A DNA stretch of 16,708 bases from Thermoplasmata archaeon (GTDB taxonomy: Archaea; Thermoplasmatota; Thermoplasmata; Lutacidiplasmatales; UBA184), in NCBI GenBank assembly GCA_030042955.1, contig JASHYQ010000120.1:1-16708 (forward strand), given 5' to 3'. Each line of letters opens with the position of its first letter. The first letter of the stretch is position 1. Position numbers and translations under genes: made by a program. Below the pieces are notes generated by a model. The model saw nothing but the letters and a program-made list of their open reading frames with translations. It was not told where the DNA came from and ran no database searches. Below, one piece after another: positions 2,973-16,708 of this stretch.

Positions 2973-3452
2973 CTAGCCCTTGGCCGGCATTCCGCTCCGG
3001 TACCGCTCTTCGATGGCCAGCACAAGCTTATCCCAATAGTTGTTCGAGGAACGAAGCCAGTCGGCCCTCTTGGGGAACTTTGGAACCATCCACCGCTCAA
3101 CCATCACCAGGCTGACTCGGGTCTTGCTCGGACCCAGCGCGGTGAGTTTGTAGTCCATCGAGTCGAGATCCTCCTCACCGATCGTATCCTTGTGCCAAGC
3201 ATTCGGCGGGCGAAGTCGAACAACTTCGACGTTCATCACAGGATTCTTAGCTCCCTTGCTGGCGACCTTGACGCGAACCAGCCGCTGGGGACTCACTCTC
3301 ACGACTCGATGCCTCTGCTCGGACCTCGCGAGCTTTGCGTCATCGGGCCGGAAGTCGGTGCACCAGTCGTATACGTAGCGGAGGGGAGCGTCGACGACCT
3401 TGGAGAGTCTTCCCGTTTGCGTTGCGAAGACTCGTCGGCCTTGCTCGGGCAT
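2973..3452 (-). CDS. SRPBCC-fold (START/polyketide-cyclase-like) protein, copy 1
   Basis: A 159-residue protein with the layout of the SRPBCC helix-grip fold. The first strand and helix are 'GRLSKVVDAPLRYVYDWCTDF' split around residues 14-34, followed by several long antiparallel strands and a long C-terminal helix ('SSNNYWDKLVLAIEERY'). The signature 'VYxWCTD[FY]xPxDA' is shared with the gene at 14485-14961, as are 'VVRLxPPNxWHxD' and 'SxDYxL', so the two are paralogues. Such proteins bind hydrophobic ligands in a central cavity, and no catalytic residue can be assigned. The start was chosen by alignment with the paralogue (25 versus 29 residues before WCTD), with a TATA-like GATTATCA about 36 bases upstream. 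It lies upstream of the PhnB-like gene, 136 bp away, on the same strand. Confidence 0.83.
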   Translation of the reverse strand: MPEQGRRVFATQTGRLSKVVDAPLRYVYDWCTDFRPDDAKLARSEQRHRVVRVSPQRLVRVKVASKGAKNPVMNVEVVRLRPPNAWHKDTIGEEDLDSMDYKLTALGPSKTRVSLVMVERWMVPKFPKRADWLRSSNNYWDKLVLAIEERYRSGMPAKG

Positions 3453-3647: not shown

Positions 3648-3992
3648 TCACTTGGGAACTTTGGCTCGGGTAAGTTGACGCAGGAGACGAGGGGCATCTT
3701 CGGTGACTAGGCGCCAGATTACGTCGGGGTCCAGGTCCGCGTAATCGTGGGTGAGCAGCTGACGTATCCGGCCGATTCGGGTTCTGTCAAGTTTCGGATT
3801 CAGGTTGAAGAACGAGTCACCCTGTCGATTCAACGACTCGAAGGCTTTCCTCAGCTCTCCCTCAACGAGGCGCAGTGTATCGGGATTCTCCTCCTCAAAG
3901 AAGGTGGCACGACCTCGCTGAGAGTAGCGGACTGCCTCTTGGAAGTGCTCAATCGAGAGCGAGAGACGATCTCGCACTCTGCCAACGTTCAC
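3648..3992 (-). CDS. hepT: HepT-like HEPN ribonuclease toxin (DUF86)
   Basis: A 114-residue all-helical protein matching the HepT/DUF86 branch of HEPN ribonucleases. The diagnostic motif is 'RQLLTHDYADLDPDVIW' at residues 77-93. It supplies Arg77, His82 and Tyr84 in the R-x4-H-x-Y arrangement. In characterised HepT proteins Arg and His form the RNase site, and the Tyr is the residue AMPylated by the partner nucleotidyltransferase. The C-terminal 'LVTEDAPRLLRQL' is also typical. The start is GTG at 3992, overlapping the nucleotidyltransferase stop as GTGA, so the two are translationally coupled with the antitoxin read first. Toxin activity is inferred from the family. The intact motif argues against a decayed gene. 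Confidence 0.9.
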   Translation of the reverse strand: MNVGRVRDRLSLSIEHFQEAVRYSQRGRATFFEEENPDTLRLVEGELRKAFESLNRQGDSFFNLNPKLDRTRIGRIRQLLTHDYADLDPDVIWRLVTEDAPRLLRQLTRAKVPK

Positions 3993-4417
3993 AAAGGGAC
4001 CGCCTCAGCGATTACCTGCGGCTGAATGAACCAATGGAGCGAACTCTCAGAGACCACATCGACGCGTCGTCCAAGCAGTTTCTCCAGTTCAATCGTCAGT
4101 GAGATCGGGTCGTAGCGACGTCCACTCGACGTGACCAAAATGTCAACGTCGCTCGCAAGTGTGGCTTCGCGGCGGGCCACCGATCCGAACACCCTCGCCT
4201 CTCGAGCACCGAATCGTTCGACCAAGCGCAGCAGCTTGGGCCTTCTGTCTCCGATGATTTGCTCGACTCCGAGTCCCGACCCGTACGTCGGTATCCTCAA
4301 TCGAGGGGTGGCGAAGAATGGCGATTTGCATCGAGCACAGATGCGAACCCGAGCTCTTCGAGGATACCAATAGTACCCGCAGCGGTAACAGCGTGCAGCA
4401 CTCCGTCGATTTACCAT
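3989..4417 (-). CDS. mntA: MntA-like nucleotidyltransferase antitoxin with N-terminal zinc ribbon
   Basis: A 142-residue minimal nucleotidyltransferase. The catalytic motif at residues 68-82 reads 'GSVARREATLASDVD', matching the GS-x10-D-x-D pattern of MntA antitoxins. Asp110 in 'RRVDVV' is the likely third acidic residue. In characterised systems MntA neutralises HepT by transferring AMP to the Tyr of the R-x4-H-x-Y motif, which is present in the next gene. Residues 10-30 form a zinc ribbon, C-x2-C-x13-C-x2-C ('CYRC', 'CARC'), an extension absent from minimal MntA proteins. It may bind DNA or RNA for autoregulation (inference). The ATG at 4417 was chosen because it directly precedes the ribbon and lies about 30 bases after a strong TATA box. 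The longer frame from 4513 would begin upstream of that box. Confidence 0.88.
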   Translation of the reverse strand: MVNRRSAARCYRCGYYWYPRRARVRICARCKSPFFATPRLRIPTYGSGLGVEQIIGDRRPKLLRLVERFGAREARVFGSVARREATLASDVDILVTSSGRRYDPISLTIELEKLLGRRVDVVSESSLHWFIQPQVIAEAVPL

Positions 4418-4661
4418 CGATGAAAGTAAGATTCTTGAGCCACTTAAAAACTTACCTTCGCCCTCGGGAGGTAAATGAGGCAACCCCCCCCAGACCGTTC
4501 TGTCCGTAATCATCCAAACAGACCCCCAACGGCTTTGGTTTGAGCCTCGTCCAGGGGCTTGTGAGGCTCATCGTGGATGTCACCCGCCCCGAGCTCGATG
4601 CCCGAGAAGGCGTGCTGACTGTTTGAATCTCTGTCCCTCTCACACCGCTCAGAGCCCTAAG
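4418..4661. other. Intergenic stretch with one inverted repeat
   Basis: Apart from the mntA promoter the stretch holds no convincing gene. TGAGCCTC (4541-4548) and GAGGCTCA (4563-4570) form a perfect 8-bp inverted repeat around a 14-base loop, with no T-run beside it. Minus-strand frames here are Ser/Thr/Arg-rich and lack protein-like structure. Confidence 0.4.
4443..4450 (-). promoter_or_regulatory. TATA box of the mntA-hepT pair
   Basis: TTTTTAAG on the minus strand is the most AT-rich element nearby. It is centred about 30 bases before the ATG at 4417, so transcription would start at or within a few bases of the start codon. The inverted pentamers GTAAG (4426-4430) and CTTAC (4451-4455) bracket it and may form an operator. 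Confidence 0.6.
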
Positions 4662-8617: not shown

Positions 8618-8953
8618 CTAACCGAGCTCGAGGACGAGCTTGTGTTTTTGTTCCGGTGCGACAAGGACCTCTTGACCGTTCCGGAGCTTCAGGTAGCGAG
8701 CAAGGGGGGATGGAATCCGAACCACGAGCGAGTTGCCAGAACGGGCCACTTTCACCTTCGAAGCCAGGCCCCAGAGACCTAGCTCCTTGGCCCGGTCTTC
8801 GATCGCGGAGACACTTTCAGAGGTGAAGAAGACCTCCCCGCATTCATTGCAGACTTCCGCAGCGTACGTCCCAAGCTCGATTCCAAACATCTCCTCGCGG
8901 ACACGCTTGGGCCTGAGGGTTCCTTTGCCACACACAGGGCACTGCTCTGCCAT
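8618..8953 (-). CDS. Antitoxin: YgiT-type zinc finger fused to AbrB/MazE-like domain
   Basis: A 111-residue two-domain protein. Residues 5-38 form a YgiT/MqsA-type zinc finger with Cys5-x2-Cys8 ('CPVC') and Cys35-x2-Cys38 ('CNEC'), followed by 'GEVFFTSESVSAIEDRA', a typical continuation of that family. Residues 64-110 are an AbrB/SpoVT/MazE-like DNA-binding domain, with 'VKVARSGNSLVVRIPSPLARYL' split around 67-88 and 'L.NGQEVLV' after it. In MazE the 'SGNSLxVRIP' element contacts DNA, so the protein probably represses its own operon while the zinc finger contacts the partner (inference). It starts one base after the stop of the upstream DUF4258 gene, so the two are co-transcribed with the toxin candidate first. 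It ends against a palindrome shared with the convergent intergenic region. Confidence 0.9.
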   Translation of the reverse strand: MAEQCPVCGKGTLRPKRVREEMFGIELGTYAAEVCNECGEVFFTSESVSAIEDRAKELGLWGLASKVKVARSGNSLVVRIPSPLARYLKLRNGQEVLVAPEQKHKLVLELG

Positions 8954-9422: not shown

Positions 9423-11342
9423 TCAGGCGAGGTTCATCCGCTTCAGGATCTGAGTGAATCGTGGATCCTGCCGCGCGGGCTCGAGCATTGGCTCGAGCCG
9501 CCAAACCTGAAGCGGGACCTGGTGCTCCTCCAGCGCTTTCTCCATGAGCCGGAAGCATTCATCGAGGTTACCCAGTAAGGCATGGACCATCGCGACGTCC
9601 GCATCCTTACCGATCTTGCCCTCCTTGCCCGCCGGACTTTCGAGGATTTTCACGGCCTTCTCCTTCTCCCCAGCCGCCGCGTAGAGAAGGGCAATCCAAG
9701 TAAGATGATGTTGTGACGCTAGCTCCTCGGACCGACTGAGCTCCTGAAGGGCTCGCGGCAAGTCAGACCTACAGAGATAGTAGAAGGCGAGCCCCCAGTG
9801 GTAGTATTGGGGATCCCCGCCCAGTTCCTTTTGTCGTTCAATCTTGACTTTGGCTTCGTCCAGTCTTCGTAGCATGAGCAAGGTCGTACAGTATGAGATG
9901 GCGTTGACGAGCGAATGCGGGTCGCACTCCTCCGCGAGCGCGTGCTCTCGGAGGGCTTCGTTGGCTCGACCTTCATCCTCGAGAATGGCTGCGTAGATGT
10001 GATGCGCAAAGGAGTAGCCCGGAATGATCGATAAGGCAAGCTGGATTTCCTTCTCCGCTCTGACGTACTCGAAGGCATCCCACACGATGGCGGCAAGCGA
10101 ACAGTGAGCCTCCGCCAGCCCCGGTTCGAGTTCTATGGCGCGGGCGGCGTACGCCCTCCTCTCCTGGTCCCACCCCTCTCGAGTGGTTACGCGCCAACCC
10201 CAACCGAGATAGCTCGTTACGTCCGCCAGGCCCGAGTAGGCCCTCGCATTCGTCGGGTCAATCGAAATCGCGAGCTCGAACTGCTTCTTTGCAGCTTGGA
10301 AGTTCTCCTTGGACCACGAGGCGAGCAAAAGGGAGCGGCCTTTCAGATACGCGAGGTAGGAATCGGGGCGCACGGCCGGTCGTTTTTCGAGTCGGGTCTC
10401 CTCGCCCTTCTTCATCTTGATCTTTAGAACCCTAGCAATGCGCTTGGCGACCTCGGTTTGGACCGCGAAAACGTCTTCGAGCTTTCGGTCGTAGGTGCTC
10501 GCCCAGGCGTGTTCCTGGGTGCCCACGTCGATCAACTGGACCGTGATGCGGATCTGGTCGCGCGCCTTCCGGACGCTTCCCTCCAGGATCGAGGTGACCC
10601 CGAGCTCGGACCCGATTTGAGAGACGGACTTCGAGGTAGCCTTGTACGGGAATACCGACGTGCGGGCGATCACCCGAATCTCCTGAAGCTGAGAGAGGAT
10701 CGTGATTAGCTCCTCCGTGAGGCCATCGGCAAAGTACTCGTCGGCGGGGTCCGGGCTCATGTTGACGAACGGCAACACCGCGAGCCGGATCGGACCGAAA
10801 GTCGGGGACTCAGGTTCCGGAGTGAGCCACGGCAAGGCGACTCGATAAACGTCGATCGGGAACCGCAAGTTCTTGAGGTTCTTGGGAGGCAGCTTTTCTA
10901 GCGCGTTCGGTATCTTGTTGCGGACCTGGTCGAAAACCTGTCCCGAGAGACAGACTCCTCCCGGGTCGGCCAAGGGCTCCACCCGAGCGGCGATATTGAC
11001 CGCGTCCCCGAAGATGTCATGGCCGTGCTGCTCCACGTCCCCGAGATGAATGCCGATTCTCAGTTGCACGGGCACGACGTTCGTTTGGGAGTTGCGCTCG
11101 TGCATGCGACGCTGAATCTCGATTGCGCACTGGGCGGCCCTGAGCGCACTGTCGAATTCGACCAAGAACCCGTCACCAGTCGACTTGATCTCGCGTCCCC
11201 CGTACTCCGCAAGAAGGGGACGAACCAAATCTTCCTGTTCTCGCAAACGCGCTAGCGTACCCGACTCATCAATCTGAGTTGAGGCCGAATAGCCGACCAT
11301 GTCCGTGAACATGATGACGGCCAGCCGTCGTTTCGCGGCCAC
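9423..11342 (-). CDS. Class III nucleotidyl cyclase with TolB-N-like domain and TPR repeats, copy 1
   Basis: A 639-residue soluble protein in three parts. Residues 5-170 are a class III cyclase domain with all canonical catalytic residues: metal-binding Asp14 ('FTDMVGYS') and Asp57 ('STGDGF'), adenine-selecting Lys53 and Asp109, and transition-state Asn116 and Arg120 ('GDAVNIAAR'). The spacing fits adenylyl rather than guanylyl cyclases, so cAMP production is predicted. About 186-310 is a TolB-N-like domain ('LAVLPFVNMSPDPADEYFADGLTEELI'). From about 325 to 625 are TPR repeats, including 'AISIDPTNARAYSGLAD' and 'AIELEPGLAEAHCSLA'. No membrane segment is seen. The start is GTG 11342, because an in-frame TGA lies 12 bases upstream. 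The conserved 'MAA.RRLA.I.FTD' N-terminus and the promoter shared with copy 2 support it. A cAMP receptor is not visible in the window. Confidence 0.94.
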   Translation of the reverse strand: MAAKRRLAVIMFTDMVGYSASTQIDESGTLARLREQEDLVRPLLAEYGGREIKSTGDGFLVEFDSALRAAQCAIEIQRRMHERNSQTNVVPVQLRIGIHLGDVEQHGHDIFGDAVNIAARVEPLADPGGVCLSGQVFDQVRNKIPNALEKLPPKNLKNLRFPIDVYRVALPWLTPEPESPTFGPIRLAVLPFVNMSPDPADEYFADGLTEELITILSQLQEIRVIARTSVFPYKATSKSVSQIGSELGVTSILEGSVRKARDQIRITVQLIDVGTQEHAWASTYDRKLEDVFAVQTEVAKRIARVLKIKMKKGEETRLEKRPAVRPDSYLAYLKGRSLLLASWSKENFQAAKKQFELAISIDPTNARAYSGLADVTSYLGWGWRVTTREGWDQERRAYAARAIELEPGLAEAHCSLAAIVWDAFEYVRAEKEIQLALSIIPGYSFAHHIYAAILEDEGRANEALREHALAEECDPHSLVNAISYCTTLLMLRRLDEAKVKIERQKELGGDPQYYHWGLAFYYLCRSDLPRALQELSRSEELASQHHLTWIALLYAAAGEKEKAVKILESPAGKEGKIGKDADVAMVHALLGNLDECFRLMEKALEEHQVPLQVWRLEPMLEPARQDPRFTQILKRMNLA

Positions 11343-11664
11343 GATGCGACATCAAATCAGGACAGATTAGCCCTCGGTCCGCGCCGTTACTGTCGCCTTG
11401 AGAGGCGCCTTGGTCCCGGGCGGGTGCGCCGTCAGGTGACCGACCCTTTGGAACGGGGGGGGTTGTTCCCACCGGGGTGGGAGTTCATGCGGCGCCCTAT
11501 CGCGTCCCAAGCGACGGTGGGATCGATTCGCTGGAAGTCAGTCGCGGGAGGGCTTGCCACTCTGGTTCGAATCGCTTCGGCCTCGACGTCTCGGGGTTCG
11601 AAAGGGGTGGTTTGCTCGTAGCCCGGCTCTGAGCCAAAACCTTGACGATACGGGTTCAACGCTC
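11343..11664. other. Intergenic region (322 bp) between cyclase copies 1 and 2
   Basis: Besides the copy 1 promoter, it holds a G-rich stretch at 11453-11491 with an 8-base G run and a nearly loop-less inverted repeat, TCCCACC (11467-11473) and GGTGGGA (11476-11482). No frame here has recognisable protein features. One minus-strand frame stays open from the end of copy 2 to 11432, with moderately protein-like composition but no identifiable domain. Confidence 0.4.
11365..11370 (-). promoter_or_regulatory. TATA-like box for cyclase copy 1
   Basis: CTAATC on the minus strand is centred about 26 bases before the GTG at 11342. The 33 bases before the start align without gaps to those before copy 2, sharing TAATC and GATGTC at identical positions, which supports both starts. 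Confidence 0.5.
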
Positions 11665-13704
11665 TCAACGAGGGGGAACCTGATGGCTCGGAGGGCGACT
11701 CTTGGTCCGGGCGGTACTGGTTGAAGGAGGGCCCCCACCTGACCAAAGTGGGCGAGACAATGTCGTTGGAAGATTCATGGACCGAAGCAGGGCTAGGAAC
11801 CGCGGGTCGTCTCGGATTGGGTCGAAGCCGTGCTCTTCGTAGTGGTTCCAGAGGAGCTTGTCGCCGCTCCTGCAATCCCGCTCTAGCAGTGTAAGCGCTC
11901 TTTCCTTCTCTCCGCAGAAGGCATACGCCGAAGCAATCACTGTACTGTTCGGGACCTTGGTCCTTGGAGCCGGCTCCCTTTCAGCTAACCATGCTCGCAA
12001 TTCCTGGGGATTGCCAAGGAATGCGAGGAGTTGCCCTCGTGTGAGCCGAAAGATCAAGTTCGAAGAACCAGCCCACGGCTTCACGAGCTTGACCGCGTCG
12101 TCACTTCGGCCAGCGATCGCATAGGTCCACGCCAGCGTACTACGAGCCATTGGACGGTCGCTGAAATCCTTCATCAACTTCTCGCCCAAAGCGATCGCTT
12201 GGTCGTAATCGGCCAACTCACTGTAACTCCAAACTAGGAGCATTCTGGGGTAAAACCAAAGGGGATCTAGCTCGATTGCCGCGAGAAGTAGTTTCTGTTT
12301 CTCCCGGAATCTTTGGAGAACCGACAGAAGGTGAGCGTACCATACACGAGCGGTCGAGCTGCTCGGGTTCAGGGCGATGGCCTGCTGGAATTCCGCCTCC
12401 GCACGAGCCCAGTCAAGGTCCGCCTGAAACGCGAGGCTGCCCCGGGCCGTATGCGCGTCAGACGAGTTCGGGTTCAACTCCAGCGCCTGGACCAAGAGCT
12501 TTCGGGCGCGAGCAAAGGCAGGCCTCGCGGGACGAGTATCCCCGCCGGCGGCAATCAGGTGATTCGACAGGTGCGAATAGGCCGCCGAGAACTCGGGATC
12601 TTCGCGAATGGCCGCTTCGAAGTTCTTAGCGGCCTCGCGATCGATCTCCTTCCCAACGCCCATGGACCCACCGCCCAGGTACTGTTGAGCTGCTTGGATT
12701 CCCCTGAGATAGAACTCGTACGCGGTGAGGTTCGACGTCGGCTTCTCTTGAATCGCCTCCCGCTCAGGTTTCAGAAGTTCGACCTTCAGCGCGCCCGCGG
12801 TCCGCTCCGCCACCTCCGCTTGGATCGCGAAGACGTTCTCGAGCTTGCGGTCGTACGTTTGCGCCCATCGGTGTTCGTCCGTCCCCGTGTCAATCAGTTG
12901 GACCGCGATTCTCAGCTGATCCCCTGCTTTCCGTACGCTACCCTCGAGTACCGAATCGGCCCCGAGTTCGGAACCGATCCGGGCGACCGGCTTTGTGGTC
13001 CCCTTGTATTGGTTCACCGAGGTCCGGGAGATGACTCGAAGGCCTTTGATCTGCGAGAGGACCGTGATTAACTCTTCCGTGAGCCCGTCCGCGAAGTACT
13101 CGTCCTTCGGGTCCGGGCTGATGTTCGCAAGGGGAAGGACTGCGAGACGGGGAAGTTGAGGGGGTTTCACGACCGATTCACTGCCGGCCCATGGGAGTAC
13201 AACCCGGTAGACATCCATCGGCTCTTGCACCCCCTTGAGGTTCTTCGAACCGAGCTTTTCCAGCTGGTAGGGAACCTTGTTGTGGACCTGGACGTAAACC
13301 GGTTCGGAGAGGCAAACACCCCCCGGGTCGGCCAGGGGCTCCACCCGCGAAGCGATGTTGACCGCGTCCCCAAGGATGTCGCTCCCCTTTCGTTGGACGT
13401 CCCCGAGGTGAATTCCCACCCGTAGCCGAAGCGGTCGTTCTTCTTCCCGGGTGTTACGCTCGTGCACTTGGCGTTGGAGGTCCACCGCGCACTCGACGGC
13501 GTCCAACGCATTGTGAAACTCGATGAGGAGACCGTCGCCCATCGACTTGACCTTGCGGCCTCGGTGGATTTCGAGCAGCGGTCGAATCAGCCTCTCCTGT
13601 TCCTGCAGAAGCCGCAGCGCCCCGGCTTCGTCGGACTGAGCGAGCGAGGTGTAGCCGGCGATGTCGGTGAATACGATGGCGGCGAGCCGCCGAGTAGCGG
13701 CCAT
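11665..13704 (-). CDS. Class III nucleotidyl cyclase with TolB-N-like domain and TPR repeats, copy 2
   Basis: A 679-residue paralogue of copy 1. The cyclase domain again has Asp14, Lys53, Asp57, Asp109, Asn116 and Arg120 at the same residue numbers, so an active adenylyl cyclase is predicted. The TolB-N-like part contains 'LAVLPLANISPDPKDEYFADGLTEELI'. The C-terminal TPR part differs from the other copies: it begins 'NLTAYEFYLRGIQAAQQYLGGG' and includes 'ALELNPNSSDAHTARGSLA' and 'AIALNPSSSTARVWYAHLL'. The family usually ends near 'DPRF..LL..MNLA'. Here the frame runs on 34 residues beyond 'MNL' as a Ser/Thr/Pro/Arg-rich tail, suggesting a lost stop or a 3' frameshift. The ATG at 13704 is supported by a TATA-like GATTAATGC (plus-strand sense) centred 27 bases upstream, giving a leaderless transcript. 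Confidence 0.93.
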   Translation of the reverse strand: MAATRRLAAIVFTDIAGYTSLAQSDEAGALRLLQEQERLIRPLLEIHRGRKVKSMGDGLLIEFHNALDAVECAVDLQRQVHERNTREEERPLRLRVGIHLGDVQRKGSDILGDAVNIASRVEPLADPGGVCLSEPVYVQVHNKVPYQLEKLGSKNLKGVQEPMDVYRVVLPWAGSESVVKPPQLPRLAVLPLANISPDPKDEYFADGLTEELITVLSQIKGLRVISRTSVNQYKGTTKPVARIGSELGADSVLEGSVRKAGDQLRIAVQLIDTGTDEHRWAQTYDRKLENVFAIQAEVAERTAGALKVELLKPEREAIQEKPTSNLTAYEFYLRGIQAAQQYLGGGSMGVGKEIDREAAKNFEAAIREDPEFSAAYSHLSNHLIAAGGDTRPARPAFARARKLLVQALELNPNSSDAHTARGSLAFQADLDWARAEAEFQQAIALNPSSSTARVWYAHLLSVLQRFREKQKLLLAAIELDPLWFYPRMLLVWSYSELADYDQAIALGEKLMKDFSDRPMARSTLAWTYAIAGRSDDAVKLVKPWAGSSNLIFRLTRGQLLAFLGNPQELRAWLAEREPAPRTKVPNSTVIASAYAFCGEKERALTLLERDCRSGDKLLWNHYEEHGFDPIRDDPRFLALLRSMNLPTTLSRPLWSGGGPPSTSTARTKSRPPSHQVPPR

Positions 13705-13726
13705 GACCTGACATCGAGTCTAGGGT

Positions 13727-13735
13727 GATTAATGC
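13727..13735 (-). promoter_or_regulatory. TATA-like box for cyclase copy 2
   Basis: GCATTAATC on the minus strand is centred 27 bases before the ATG at 13704, giving a leaderless transcript. It aligns with the equivalent box of copy 1. Confidence 0.55.
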
Positions 13736-13851
13736 TCGGTGCCAATGTCGGGTGACGCACAACGGGCACTTTGCGCTCGCAAGGGGTGGGATGTTATCGG
13801 AAGAGGTGCCGACCTACGGATGAGCCCGACCGGATTCAACGGCGTCGCCAA

Positions 13852-13862
13852 GATTCTATGTA
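13852..13862 (+). promoter_or_regulatory. TATA-like box for the gene at 13882
   Basis: The AT-rich GATTCTATGTA is centred about 26 bases before ATG 13882, compatible with a leaderless transcript. The match is weak but the spacing repeats that of neighbouring genes. Confidence 0.35.
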
Positions 13863-13881
13863 GGATCCTCAATCTCCTCCC

Positions 13882-14289
13882 ATGGCCCTGAAGCGTAGTC
13901 ACGACCTGCCCTCCACGGTGCATGTCGAACTCTTTGTCGTCCCCCGATCAAAGCGGAGCGAGCTCCTCCACCGGAGTCGCGACCTTTACCGCGTGGTTCG
14001 ACCCCCCACCCGAAGGCGGAACGGCGTAGGTCCGTGGCTCTTCCTGCTCGAAGGGAAGCCTCGCCGACGCACCATTCCTCAGAACCTCCGGAGCGTCGTC
14101 GAGGTGAGGCCTGACGAGGACCTCTGGCTCGAGCTCGCCTTCTACTCGGGTCCGTCGGCGATGCGGAAAACCTTGCGGCAGCTGTGGAAGCGTCCCCAAG
14201 TCGTTCGCTTGGCTCAGGAAGTGGAACGGCTGAGTCGCAAGCGGAATCGATCCTGGACCATTGCGACGGGAGCGGTTGCGATCCGCTAG
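13882..14289 (+). CDS. Unrecognised basic protein, possible dimeric alpha/beta-barrel (DUF1428-like)
   Basis: A 135-residue protein that I do not firmly recognise. It is strongly basic and begins with a strand-like 'STVHVELFVVPRSKRSELLHRSRDLYRVV' (about 11-39). A second strand region is 'GPWLFLLEGKPRRRTIPQNL', then 'VRPDEDLWLELAFYSGPSAMRKTLRQLWKRPQVVRLAQEV', which alternates strand and helix. The order 'V.K..L', 'W..FYS...MR..L..L...P.V' recalls DUF1428-type ferredoxin-like barrels, but this is weak. No catalytic motif is seen. Codon use matches real genes nearby, unlike the Arg/Pro/Gly-rich frames on the opposite strand. A TATA-like element lies about 26 bases upstream of the ATG. The gene is divergent from cyclase copy 2 and followed by a 7-bp hairpin. 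Confidence 0.62.
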   Translation: MALKRSHDLPSTVHVELFVVPRSKRSELLHRSRDLYRVVRPPTRRRNGVGPWLFLLEGKPRRRTIPQNLRSVVEVRPDEDLWLELAFYSGPSAMRKTLRQLWKRPQVVRLAQEVERLSRKRNRSWTIATGAVAIR

Positions 14290-14326
14290 TGGCTCCGCGC
14301 AATCGAGGTCGAGCGGGTCGCGAAAC

Positions 14327-14352
14327 ACCAACCTTCGGGGAGAGGGGTTGGT
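14327..14352 (+). terminator. Hairpin after the gene at 13882
   Basis: ACCAACC (14327-14333) and GGTTGGT (14346-14352) form a perfect 7-bp stem with a 12-base loop, 38 bases past the stop. No T-run follows. Confidence 0.4.
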
Positions 14353-14484
14353 TCGGGTTGGAAGGGGTGCCTTCTAGGACGACGGGGTCCACGCCCATCT
14401 CTCCGACCAGCGGGTTCGAACCGACTTGCGGTGGAGTCCAGTGGACGATGGGTGCTCCGAGCCGGCGGGTCCGTTCGGTTGCCC

Positions 14485-14961
14485 TTAGCTCCGCCCGCGC
14501 TTCGAACCCACCCTCTTGTACTCCCGTTCCAGGGCCTGGCCGAAGTTCTTCCAACTCTTCGCGACGTATCGTTCCCACTGAGTTTTCGGAGGATTCTTCG
14601 TGCCGATTCCGTACGGTCGACGGCGCGCCTTTAGGGTCAGTCGAGTACGGTTCCCAGGAAGTCGTGAGAGTCGATAGTCCAACGAGACGGCCCGGTGACT
14701 CCCTACTGAGTCAGAGTGCCAACGGTTGGGCGGGAGGAGGCGAACCACGTGCCGGGACCAAACCCAGCCTTCCTTGCTGCTGGAGAGATCCTCGTAGATC
14801 ACCTCCCGAAGAGACCTGCGAAGGATTCGGCGGTCGTATTCATCCCGCTCGTACCGCGCATCCTTCGGCGTGTAGTCTGTGCACCATCGATAGACGAAGT
14901 CCAAAGGCGCACGGAACGTCGCTCGCACTTCGTAGCGGGGACCGGGCCAACGTTTCGGCAT
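14485..14961 (-). CDS. SRPBCC-fold (START/polyketide-cyclase-like) protein, copy 2
   Basis: A 158-residue paralogue of the protein at 2973-3452. Shared elements are 'VYRWCTDYTPKDAR' (about 23-36, against 'VYDWCTDFRPDDAK'), 'HVVRLLPPNRWHSD', 'SLDYRLSRL' and the C-terminal helix 'YVAKSWKNFGQALEREYKR'. A hydrophobic-ligand-binding helix-grip fold is predicted and the ligand is unknown. The ATG at 14961 is chosen over an upstream one at 15135 for two reasons: GAGGAGGT lies seven bases before it, and the N-terminus then matches the paralogue. An AT-rich AATTTTCATT about 52 bases upstream may be the TATA box, leaving a leader of about 25 bases that contains the Shine-Dalgarno motif. It lies between cyclase copies 2 and 3 on the same strand as both. 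Confidence 0.85.
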   Translation of the reverse strand: MPKRWPGPRYEVRATFRAPLDFVYRWCTDYTPKDARYERDEYDRRILRRSLREVIYEDLSSSKEGWVWSRHVVRLLPPNRWHSDSVGSHRAVSLDYRLSRLPGNRTRLTLKARRRPYGIGTKNPPKTQWERYVAKSWKNFGQALEREYKRVGSKRGRS

Positions 14962-14968
14962 GCAGGCA

Positions 14969-14976
14969 ACCTCCTC
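14969..14976 (-). promoter_or_regulatory. Shine-Dalgarno motif for SRPBCC copy 2
   Basis: GAGGAGGT on the minus strand lies seven bases before ATG 14961. It sets the start and rejects the longer frame beginning at 15135. Confidence 0.75.
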
Positions 14977-15008
14977 TCCCCGGGGGTGCAGGGAAATCGA
15001 GCTGGGCA

Positions 15009-15018
15009 ATGAAAATTG
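15009..15018 (-). promoter_or_regulatory. TATA-like box for SRPBCC copy 2
   Basis: AATTTTCATT on the minus strand is about 52 bases before the ATG. At a 27-base spacing it predicts a leader of about 25 bases that holds the Shine-Dalgarno motif. Confidence 0.42.
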
Positions 15019-15250
15019 CGCAAGGGGGGCTATGTCAACGGAGACCCGACCTGCGGGAACCCTCTCGATTCCGGGCCTTCTCGATGTCGGGAGCCGTTTA
15101 GGCGATGCGCGACCCATTTCGGTCAGGTGACTCACCTTGCGGGGCTTGACCCCGTCAACTTCGCCAGCGTCTTCCTTCGGTGCGCTTGGCCGATCTCACG
15201 TAGTCGGAATCTTCAGCTTCGCGAGCATCGAGTCCAGCCTGCTGGTGCCC

Positions 15251-16708
15251 TTACGCTAGCTTCCTTTTCCTCAGCAGCTCGACGAACCGCGGATCCTTGC
15301 GAACATGACCGAGACGCGGGTCGAGCCGCCATCGTTGCAACGAGAGATTGGATGTCTCTTCCGCCCTAGCCAACCAGCGAAAACAGTTGTCGAGGTCGCC
15401 GAGCGCGGCGTAGATCCGGGCGATGAACTGCGCCGAGGGCGGGCGGTCCGGTAGAGTCTCGTCGTTCCGAAGAATGGCCCTCGACTGCTCTCCATCCCCA
15501 GCGCAAGCACAGTACATGGCACGCCTCAGTTGGCTGTCCCGAGGGTCGCTGTCTGCCTCCTCAGCCCGTTGAACCTCCTTGAGGACCTGCGGAAGGTCCG
15601 ACCGAGCAAGATAGTACTCCGCGAGCTGACCGTGATAGGCGGCGCGGGCGCTGCTCTCGTCTGGGATCAGCGTCCCCGCTCTCTGGATCTTGACGAGAGC
15701 CTCGTCGAACCTACCGAGCCACAAGAGCAGGTTGGCCATGTGAAAGAGGTTCAGGCTCCAGTAGGGGTCGGCTTCCTCTGCGAGAGCGAGCTCTACGAGA
15801 GCCTCCTCGGGCTGGTTTAGATCCTGTAGCATGTTTCCGAGCGTGTTATGTGCCGCTGAATAACTCGGATTCAGCGAGAGGGCGAGTTCGACCTCCTTCT
15901 TCGCTACGGCGACGTCCTCTCGCCAGAGCACCGCCCCTAAGGACGCGTGGGCTTCCGCCAGATTTGGGTCCAGCTCGATCGCCCGGTCTACCAGACGGCG
16001 GGCGGTTCTGTCCGATTCCTCTGGGGGAACGTCGCGGTGCCACCATCCCAGCCGGATTATCGTGTCGGCCAAGCCGGAGTACGCGGCAGCATTCCTGGGG
16101 TCCCGGGAGATGGCAGTCTCGAACCGCTCCCTCGCCGCGTCGAGGGTAGCCCTGGAGGTGTCACGGTGCAGCAGGGTCCGCCCCTTCAGATAGGCGAGGT
16201 AGGAATCCGGTAGGACTCGTGGTCGGGATTCGATACGCGCTGCCTCGGAACCGCGGAGCTCGATTTTCAGGGCCTCCGCCACCTGGAGGGCGAGTTCTGC
16301 CTGGACCGAGAACACGTCGTCGAGTTCCCGGTCGTACGTCTTGGCCCAGAGGTGTCGGTCGGAACGTGCGTCAATCAACTGAGCGGTAACCCTTAGTCGG
16401 CTTCCGGCCTTACGCACGCTGCCCTCAAGGATCGAGGCCACGCCCAACTCTACCCCAATCTGGGAGGCCGACTTAGGGGTGGCTTTGTACAGCATCACCG
16501 ACGTGCGAGAGATCACGCGAAGCTCTCGCAGCTGGGAGAGCACGGTGATCAACTCTTCCGTGAGGCCGTCCGCGAAGTACTCGTCCTTCGGGTCGGGACT
16601 GATGTTGGTGAACGGGAGCACGGCGATTCCTGTTGGGCCGGCGATTTCGGACAGGACGTCCCGATCGGTCCAGGGAAGGATGACTCGGTAGATTTCAATC
16701 GAAACTTG
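15251..16708 (-). CDS. TolB-N-like/TPR protein, copy 3 of the cyclase family, N-terminus beyond the window
   Basis: 485 codons of the C-terminal portion are present, and the gene runs off the window edge. The first visible residues, 'VSIEIYRVILPW', match the end of the cyclase domain in copies 1 and 2 ('IDVYRVALPW'), so a cyclase domain almost certainly lies outside. The TolB-N-like part follows ('AVLPFTNISPDPKDEYFADGLTEELI'), then TPR repeats such as 'AISRDPRNAAAYSGLADT', 'AIELDPNLAEAHASLGAVL' and 'ALSLNPSYSAAHNTLGN'. It ends in 'DPRFVELLRKRKLA'. The TPR part resembles copy 1 more than copy 2. At DNA level its TolB-like start is nearly the same as copy 2 (16558-16607 against 13078-13127). 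Internal GTG 16621 is not the start. Confidence 0.92.
   Translation of the reverse strand, partial: QVSIEIYRVILPWTDRDVLSEIAGPTGIAVLPFTNISPDPKDEYFADGLTEELITVLSQLRELRVISRTSVMLYKATPKSASQIGVELGVASILEGSVRKAGSRLRVTAQLIDARSDRHLWAKTYDRELDDVFSVQAELALQVAEALKIELRGSEAARIESRPRVLPDSYLAYLKGRTLLHRDTSRATLDAARERFETAISRDPRNAAAYSGLADTIIRLGWWHRDVPPEESDRTARRLVDRAIELDPNLAEAHASLGAVLWREDVAVAKKEVELALSLNPSYSAAHNTLGNMLQDLNQPEEALVELALAEEADPYWSLNLFHMANLLLWLGRFDEALVKIQRAGTLIPDESSARAAYHGQLAEYYLARSDLPQVLKEVQRAEEADSDPRDSQLRRAMYCACAGDGEQSRAILRNDETLPDRPPSAQFIARIYAALGDLDNCFRWLARAEETSNLSLQRWRLDPRLGHVRKDPRFVELLRKRKLA

Follow-up and report, generated by a model that had tools for sequence, protein, structure and literature searches.

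The window analysed here is a stretch of 16,708 nucleotides that forms a whole contig (JASHYQ010000120.1; G000:C326) of the draft genome of a Thermoplasmata archaeon (GTDB lineage Lutacidiplasmatales; UBA184). It carries three large genes on one strand, copies 1, 2 and 3, built from an N-terminal nucleotide cyclase domain, a TolB-like part and tetratricopeptide repeats (TPR), with copy 3 cut by the contig end (Table 1). The genome measures 1.59 Mb, with completeness and contamination estimated by a tool at 59.4% and 1.58%. An archaeal host had been proposed in an earlier sequence-only reading of this DNA, and it is confirmed: the genome is archaeal, and a TBP gene lies on one of its cyclase-bearing contigs (C281), alongside the cyclase. 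The unit of interest proved to be larger than the window, namely an expansion of such cyclases across a whole archaeal family.

Table 1. Positions of the three cyclase-TolB-like-TPR genes and their parts in the window
Feature	Position	Strand	Basis
Copy 1, cyclase-TolB-like-TPR gene, 639 residues, GTG start	9423..11342	-	Complete open reading frame; PF00211, TPR_2, residues DKDDNR
Copy 1 cyclase domain, residues 5-170	10833..11330	-	Hidden Markov model match converted to window coordinates
Copy 1 TolB-like domain, residues 179-325	10368..10808	-	Profile built from the three copies
Copy 2, cyclase-TolB-like-TPR gene, 679 residues	11665..13704	-	Complete open reading frame; PF00211, TPR models, AlphaFold model
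Copy 2 cyclase domain, residues 5-170	13195..13692	-	Six residues, hidden Markov model match, structural match to 3mr7 and Ma1120
Copy 2 stretch, residues 184-514 (TolB-like part and first TPR repeats)	12163..13155	-	Matches CadC periplasmic sensor domain
Copy 3, TolB-like and TPR part, 485 residues	15251..16708	-	Open reading frame truncated at its 5' side, where the contig stops within the last part of the cyclase domain; TPR models; relative G238:C26
Copy 3 TolB-like domain, residues 19-165	16214..16654	-	Profile built from the three copies

Conserved catalytic and divergent repeat parts

The cyclase model PF00211 matched copies 1 and 2 with 48.9 and 62.3 bits, against a curated cut-off of 21.9. 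Repeats above the curated Pfam cut-offs were found in all three copies, copy 1 passing with TPR_2 (28.2 against 27) and copy 2 with several TPR models. The class III residues of copy 2 are D14, K53, D57, D109, N116 and R120, and copy 1 has identical letters in the matching alignment columns. We take D14 and D57 to bind metal, N116 and R120 to serve the transition state, and K53 and D109 to select the base, adenine. The Lys/Asp pair at the base-selecting positions of copies 1 and 2 thus predicts adenylate, not guanylate, cyclases. Copy 3 retains only the final dozen or so residues of its cyclase part; the remainder of the domain very probably lies beyond the contig end, because the nearest relative (G238:C26, 71% across the TolB-TPR part) has a complete cyclase domain matched by PF00211. 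All three copies fell far below the cut-off of 400 bits for TIGR04510, the putative peptide modification system cyclase (57.6, 69.6 and 38.2 bits for copies 1, 2 and 3). A Pfam scan of the three at E 0.001 returned no TolB model, and the name TolB-like is that of the sequence-only reading.

Copies 1 and 2 are 60% identical in the cyclase domain and 62% in the TolB-like part, but only 25% in the TPR part. The corresponding TolB-like and TPR values are 59% and 30% for copies 2 and 3, and 64% and 46% for copies 1 and 3. For the two pairs computed, dN/dS was 0.161/0.745 (copy 2 with its relative L023) and 0.214/1.235 (copy 3 with G238), and such ratios near 0.2 indicate genes maintained by purifying selection. 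Much of what had been read from the window itself therefore stands: three genes of the same architecture, although the cyclase part of copy 3 is mostly past the contig end; all six catalytic residues intact at equal columns in copies 1 and 2; and divergent TPR regions (25-46% identity) on a conserved remainder (59-64% in the TolB-like part).

A CadC-like fold in the TolB-TPR half

In the AlphaFold model of copy 2, residues 184-514 adopt the fold of the CadC periplasmic sensor domain (Foldseek and VIA-align matches), and residues 1-172 match the structures 3mr7 and Ma1120. The latter are single class III domains, from Silicibacter pomeroyi and Mycobacterium avium, respectively, which align to the cyclase part only and have no TolB-TPR part. 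The likeness to the CadC sensor (PDB 3lya) is one of fold, with a sequence identity of only 14%. In CadC the output is a winged helix and the chain includes a membrane segment, whereas the output domain of the window proteins is a cyclase. The CadC family model gave 19.4 bits on copy 1, against a cut-off of 400, and the N-terminal domain there is the cyclase, with no winged helix. Judging from the model, the TolB-TPR half may work like the CadC sensor; the protein itself is not a CadC.

Expansion of the cyclases in one archaeal family

The genome of the window yielded 21 PF00211 domain matches from 20 open reading frames. These do not represent 21 separate genes, since two pairs of fragments at contig ends overlap (98.5% over 272 residues; 99% over 110) and one frame holds two domains; they come down to 18 distinct cyclase genes, with copy 3 in addition. 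All six residues are kept in 17 of the 21 matches, the other four being two that are cut at contig ends and both halves of one tandem protein. The same six were found in 107 of 120 domains from a set of best-match loci that includes 10 bacterial domains.

Outside this genome the counts are of domain matches, with fragments not merged. A cyclase domain was found in 67 of the 103 genomes of the taxonomic family, with 1 to 21 matches each (14 in G242, a relative that is 97% complete); 36 have no match, several of these at least 90% complete. Across wider samples the domain is sparse: 10 of 145 genomes from the phylum and 18 of 200 from the class, where 13 of the 18 come from the family of the window and its own genome counts with at least 15 matches. 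PF00211 also has a match in Methanosarcina acetivorans, used as a control genome, so class III is not unheard of in other archaea.

Other domain arrangements accompany the one in the window. They include cyclase-AAA-TPR proteins of ~1,090 residues, proteins of the order TPR-cyclase, a single protein with a weak PDZ match N-terminal to the cyclase (20.6 bits against a cut-off of 27) and, in a relative, an alpha/beta hydrolase-cyclase. A tandem protein of 1,289 residues (L070; G000:C75, 318-4187, reverse strand) has the order cyclase-cyclase-AAA-TPR and complementary catalytic losses. Its first domain is missing the first metal Asp and has the Lys, Asp, Asn and Arg, whereas the second has both metal Asp residues, with Arg and Glu replacing Lys and Asp. 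Complementary losses of this kind are a trait of pseudo-heterodimeric cyclases. We take the layout of two cyclases followed by AAA and TPR parts to be that of mammalian soluble adenylyl cyclase, an enzyme that was not among the matches listed in a PDB sequence search with this protein. Four TolB-TPR proteins (L122, L123, L124 and L136) end in an AAA domain, lack a cyclase and are nested among the cyclase proteins in the tree described below; their output domain was probably lost or exchanged.

Old paralogues gathered in clusters

A tree was built from 91 proteins, 81 archaeal and 10 bacterial, after three rows shorter than 420 residues had been dropped. A fully supported branch separates the archaeal rows from the bacterial ones, the latter being rhizobial-type plasmid records only. 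The 16 rows from the genome of the window are scattered, needing 15 label changes where shuffled labels need 15.0, and a mixture model agrees. Copy 2 is sister to L023 and copy 3 to G238, both from other genomes, while copy 1 has a long branch, and its nearest row by path is G198, with copies from its own genome nearly as close. In approximately unbiased (AU) tests, which used 40 of the 91 rows, a simpler model and groups named once the tree was known, a single clade of the genome's own copies was rejected (p 4e-41), as was a single clade of the three window copies (p 1.9e-8), and a sister relationship of copies 1 and 3 was weakly rejected (p 0.017). The scatter and these rejections imply that most splits between paralogues of this genome are older than its split from related genomes. 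A recent tandem duplication within the window is rejected by the same tests; the cluster gathers old relatives.

Clustering itself is pronounced. Five adjacent gene pairs of this genome lie within 5 kb on one contig, against 0.65 expected (P 0.00025) when genes and contig ends are placed randomly and genome sizes are rounded. In two relatives, over spans picked post hoc, 7 of 9 domain matches fall inside 132 kb (G161, P 5e-6) and 6 of 14 inside 68 kb (G242, P 0.001). A 153-kb region of the former (G161:C2:231057-384243) holds 7 of its 9 cyclase matches as well as both its strong cyclic-nucleotide-binding matches.

These results change the earlier picture in two respects. Further copies, which the sequence-only reading had proposed to look for, exist in the form of the 18 distinct genes plus copy 3, and its expectation that such proteins would be unusual in an archaeon does not hold for this family, where they are common (67 of 103 genomes). 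Its proposal of local amplification fails, as the window copies do not form one clade in the AU test and copies 2 and 3 have their sisters elsewhere.

A small candidate receptor for cAMP

The cyclic-nucleotide-binding model PF00027 matches 77 of the 103 family genomes. Its strong matches (E up to 1e-16) are, where readable, proteins of ~150 residues with a canonical cassette, for example FFGEMALLDEQPRTADV. With genomes treated as independent, strong matches occur in 51 of 67 cyclase-bearing against 1 of 36 cyclase-free genomes (Fisher p 5e-14), compared with 44 of 67 and 15 of 36 for weak matches. The cassette Glu has a role in cyclic-nucleotide binding in this domain family. Among 12 weak-scoring proteins inspected, one of them the protein C257 described below, it is changed to Trp in seven, the cassette is canonical in two (L193, L194), the match ends ahead of the cassette in two (L189, L195) and one (L192) has no match. 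Because two of the 12 are canonical, the E cut-off slightly undercounts canonical receptors. A direct homology search with one receptor detected it in 48 of the 78 genomes of the genus, for example at G209:C5:3535-3990; 47 of these 48 are among the 58 genomes that have cyclases, and the remaining one is among the 20 that have none (Fisher p 1e-9). Strong matches also lie near cyclase genes more often than weak ones (13 of 70 against 1 of 51 have a listed cyclase at most 5 kb away), in a count that covered 178 of 379 cyclase places, excluded those of the genome of the window and includes one neighbour (G202:C41) that is a partial match (E 5.5e-5).

The small protein shares the canonical cassette with the cyclic-nucleotide-binding domains of PKG/PKA and MloK1, and a PDB search placed an apicomplexan cGMP-dependent kinase first, with an E value of 2.9e-37 that sums several domains. 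Those proteins carry more, whereas the small receptor is a lone domain of ~150 residues with no kinase, channel or DNA-binding part. The one PF00027 protein found in the genome of the window (C257) was rejected as a receptor, as Trp takes the place of Glu in its cassette, GEVLGWSWL. It lies at 421-1266 on the reverse strand (L076; G000:C257), overlaps the end of an open reading frame with iron-sulphur-type cysteine motifs and is probably no cAMP receptor. The search for cAMP-binding proteins that had been suggested thus produced candidates in relatives and none in the genome of the window.

Discussion

The closest known counterparts of the window proteins are rhizobial cyclase-TolB-TPR proteins such as WP_223730784.1 from Ensifer adhaerens, annotated as an adenylate/guanylate cyclase domain-containing protein; such proteins align over 94-99% of the query at ~32-37% identity and have their domains in the same order. 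The proteins described here differ in having an archaeal host and in branching apart from the 10 rhizobial-type proteins sampled. Rhizobia hold many copies, 28 adenylate cyclases in Sinorhizobium meliloti and 37 in Bradyrhizobium japonicum according to excerpts of a 2005 census (PMC1183210), which, in the same excerpts, leave archaea without class 3 enzymes except for highly diverged, probably inactive reading frames, and mention one full-size class 3 domain from an uncultivated crenarchaeote. Extracts of a 2021 study (PMC8646023) place very few class III enzymes among predicted archaeal cyclases, with most archaea probably using an unknown class. cAMP has been measured in archaea, and its makers are unclear. 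What is new here is the expansion of rhizobial-type cyclase-TolB-TPR proteins in an archaeal family, where the literature has class III enzymes as very few or absent. Literature searches, whose coverage lay outside most subscription journals, found no published account of it; the main text of the Lutacidiplasmatales paper has no mention of cyclase, adenylate or cAMP, and the one match for adenylate cyclase with Thermoplasmata is, in its extract, a functional inference for a cave community.

We consider it fairly probable that the three genes encode soluble, signal-controlled class III adenylate cyclases of a family that expanded within one Thermoplasmata family. Signal-controlled cAMP production is the likely function of the whole set, judging from residues and modelled fold. 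As in other class III enzymes, two chains would pair through their N-terminal domains and convert ATP to cAMP, at sites where one chain would supply the metal-binding Asp and the other the Lys, Asp, Asn and Arg; these residues are present. The TolB-TPR half would form a CadC-type two-part sensor for a small ligand or a protein partner, the binding of which would shift the cyclase pair between off and on. The conservation of the cyclase and TolB-like parts, set against the divergence of the TPR parts, suggests that the paralogues would respond to different inputs. The cAMP would then be read by the separate small protein (~150 residues), whose only recognised domain is a single canonical cyclic-nucleotide-binding one and which is present in most cyclase-bearing genomes of the family and presumably acts through protein contact; this step draws on the co-occurrence and, in a minority, the linkage seen in relatives. 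Several observations weigh against a link between receptor and cyclases. By homology search the receptor is absent from the data of the genome of the window (59.4% complete) and was not found in 10 further genomes of the genus that bear cyclases, one cyclase-free genome (G178) has it, and the co-occurrence statistics leave kinship uncorrected.

More tentatively, at a chance somewhat below even, this lineage may have its own complete many-input cAMP network, in which up to ~20 sensor cyclases per genome would feed a dedicated single-domain receptor. With the same reserve, that network might comprise CadC-type, AAA/TPR-type and tandem cyclases, and a receptor without DNA-binding, kinase or channel parts. 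If true, it would be the first such cAMP network known in archaea within the literature searched. At least 18 cyclase genes in a 1.59-Mb archaeal draft, with a receptor in relatives, offer concrete proteins for in vitro tests of archaeal cAMP signalling.

The sequence-only reading had suggested amplification for different partners or inputs. The archaeon, the architecture, the catalytic residues, the TPR divergence and the additional copies survive from that interpretation, and the local amplification does not. As to partners or inputs, the CadC-like fold of the model favours inputs. Partners would be at the centre if the TolB-TPR half were instead a docking scaffold for proteins, which would place paralogues at different complexes and make cAMP locally; we regard this as unlikely, though a more serious contender than the remaining two. 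An antiviral role of the Pycsar type, with cCMP or cUMP made upon infection and with copy number, patchiness and clustering as marks of a defence trait, is improbable. It draws on the clustering of the cyclase genes, on a presence that ranges from 0 to 21 matches within one family, and on a PADLOC scan of four proteins, in which each scored best against PycC, the cyclase of the Pycsar system (36.1 bits for copy 1, 32.5 for copy 2). However, the PycC matches are limited to profile positions ~186-347 of 374, the cyclase domain common to all class III enzymes; the Lys/Asp pair, presumably adenine-selecting, is retained; and the receptor that co-occurs consists of a binding domain alone and is not an effector of the PycTIR or PycTM type. 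Recent acquisition from rhizobia-like bacterial donors, with genes accumulating without a settled role, has the slimmest chance of all: it could account for the identical architecture at ~34% identity in rhizobial plasmids and for the sparse class III cyclases elsewhere in the class, but it conflicts with the fully supported branch between the 81 archaeal and 10 bacterial rows, with dN/dS near 0.2 and with sisters common to different species. An older origin in some bacterium is possible, the bacteria sampled being of the rhizobial type only.

Neighbouring genes in the window

Several smaller genes, all on the reverse strand, share the window with the cyclases. Those at 2973-3452 and 14485-15135 encode paralogous proteins (35% over 133 residues, E 2e-24) with no Pfam match, and one of them sits between copies 2 and 3. 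A HepT-like and NTP_transf_2/Polbeta pair of the toxin-antitoxin type, with a four-base overlap, occupies 3648-4513, and its nucleotidyltransferase has a 44% relative on another cyclase contig (L068:520-993). The gene at 8618-8953 encodes a small protein that contains two CxxC pairs and weakly matches a MazE-type model, its score falling just short of the cut-off (23.5 against 24.7 bits).

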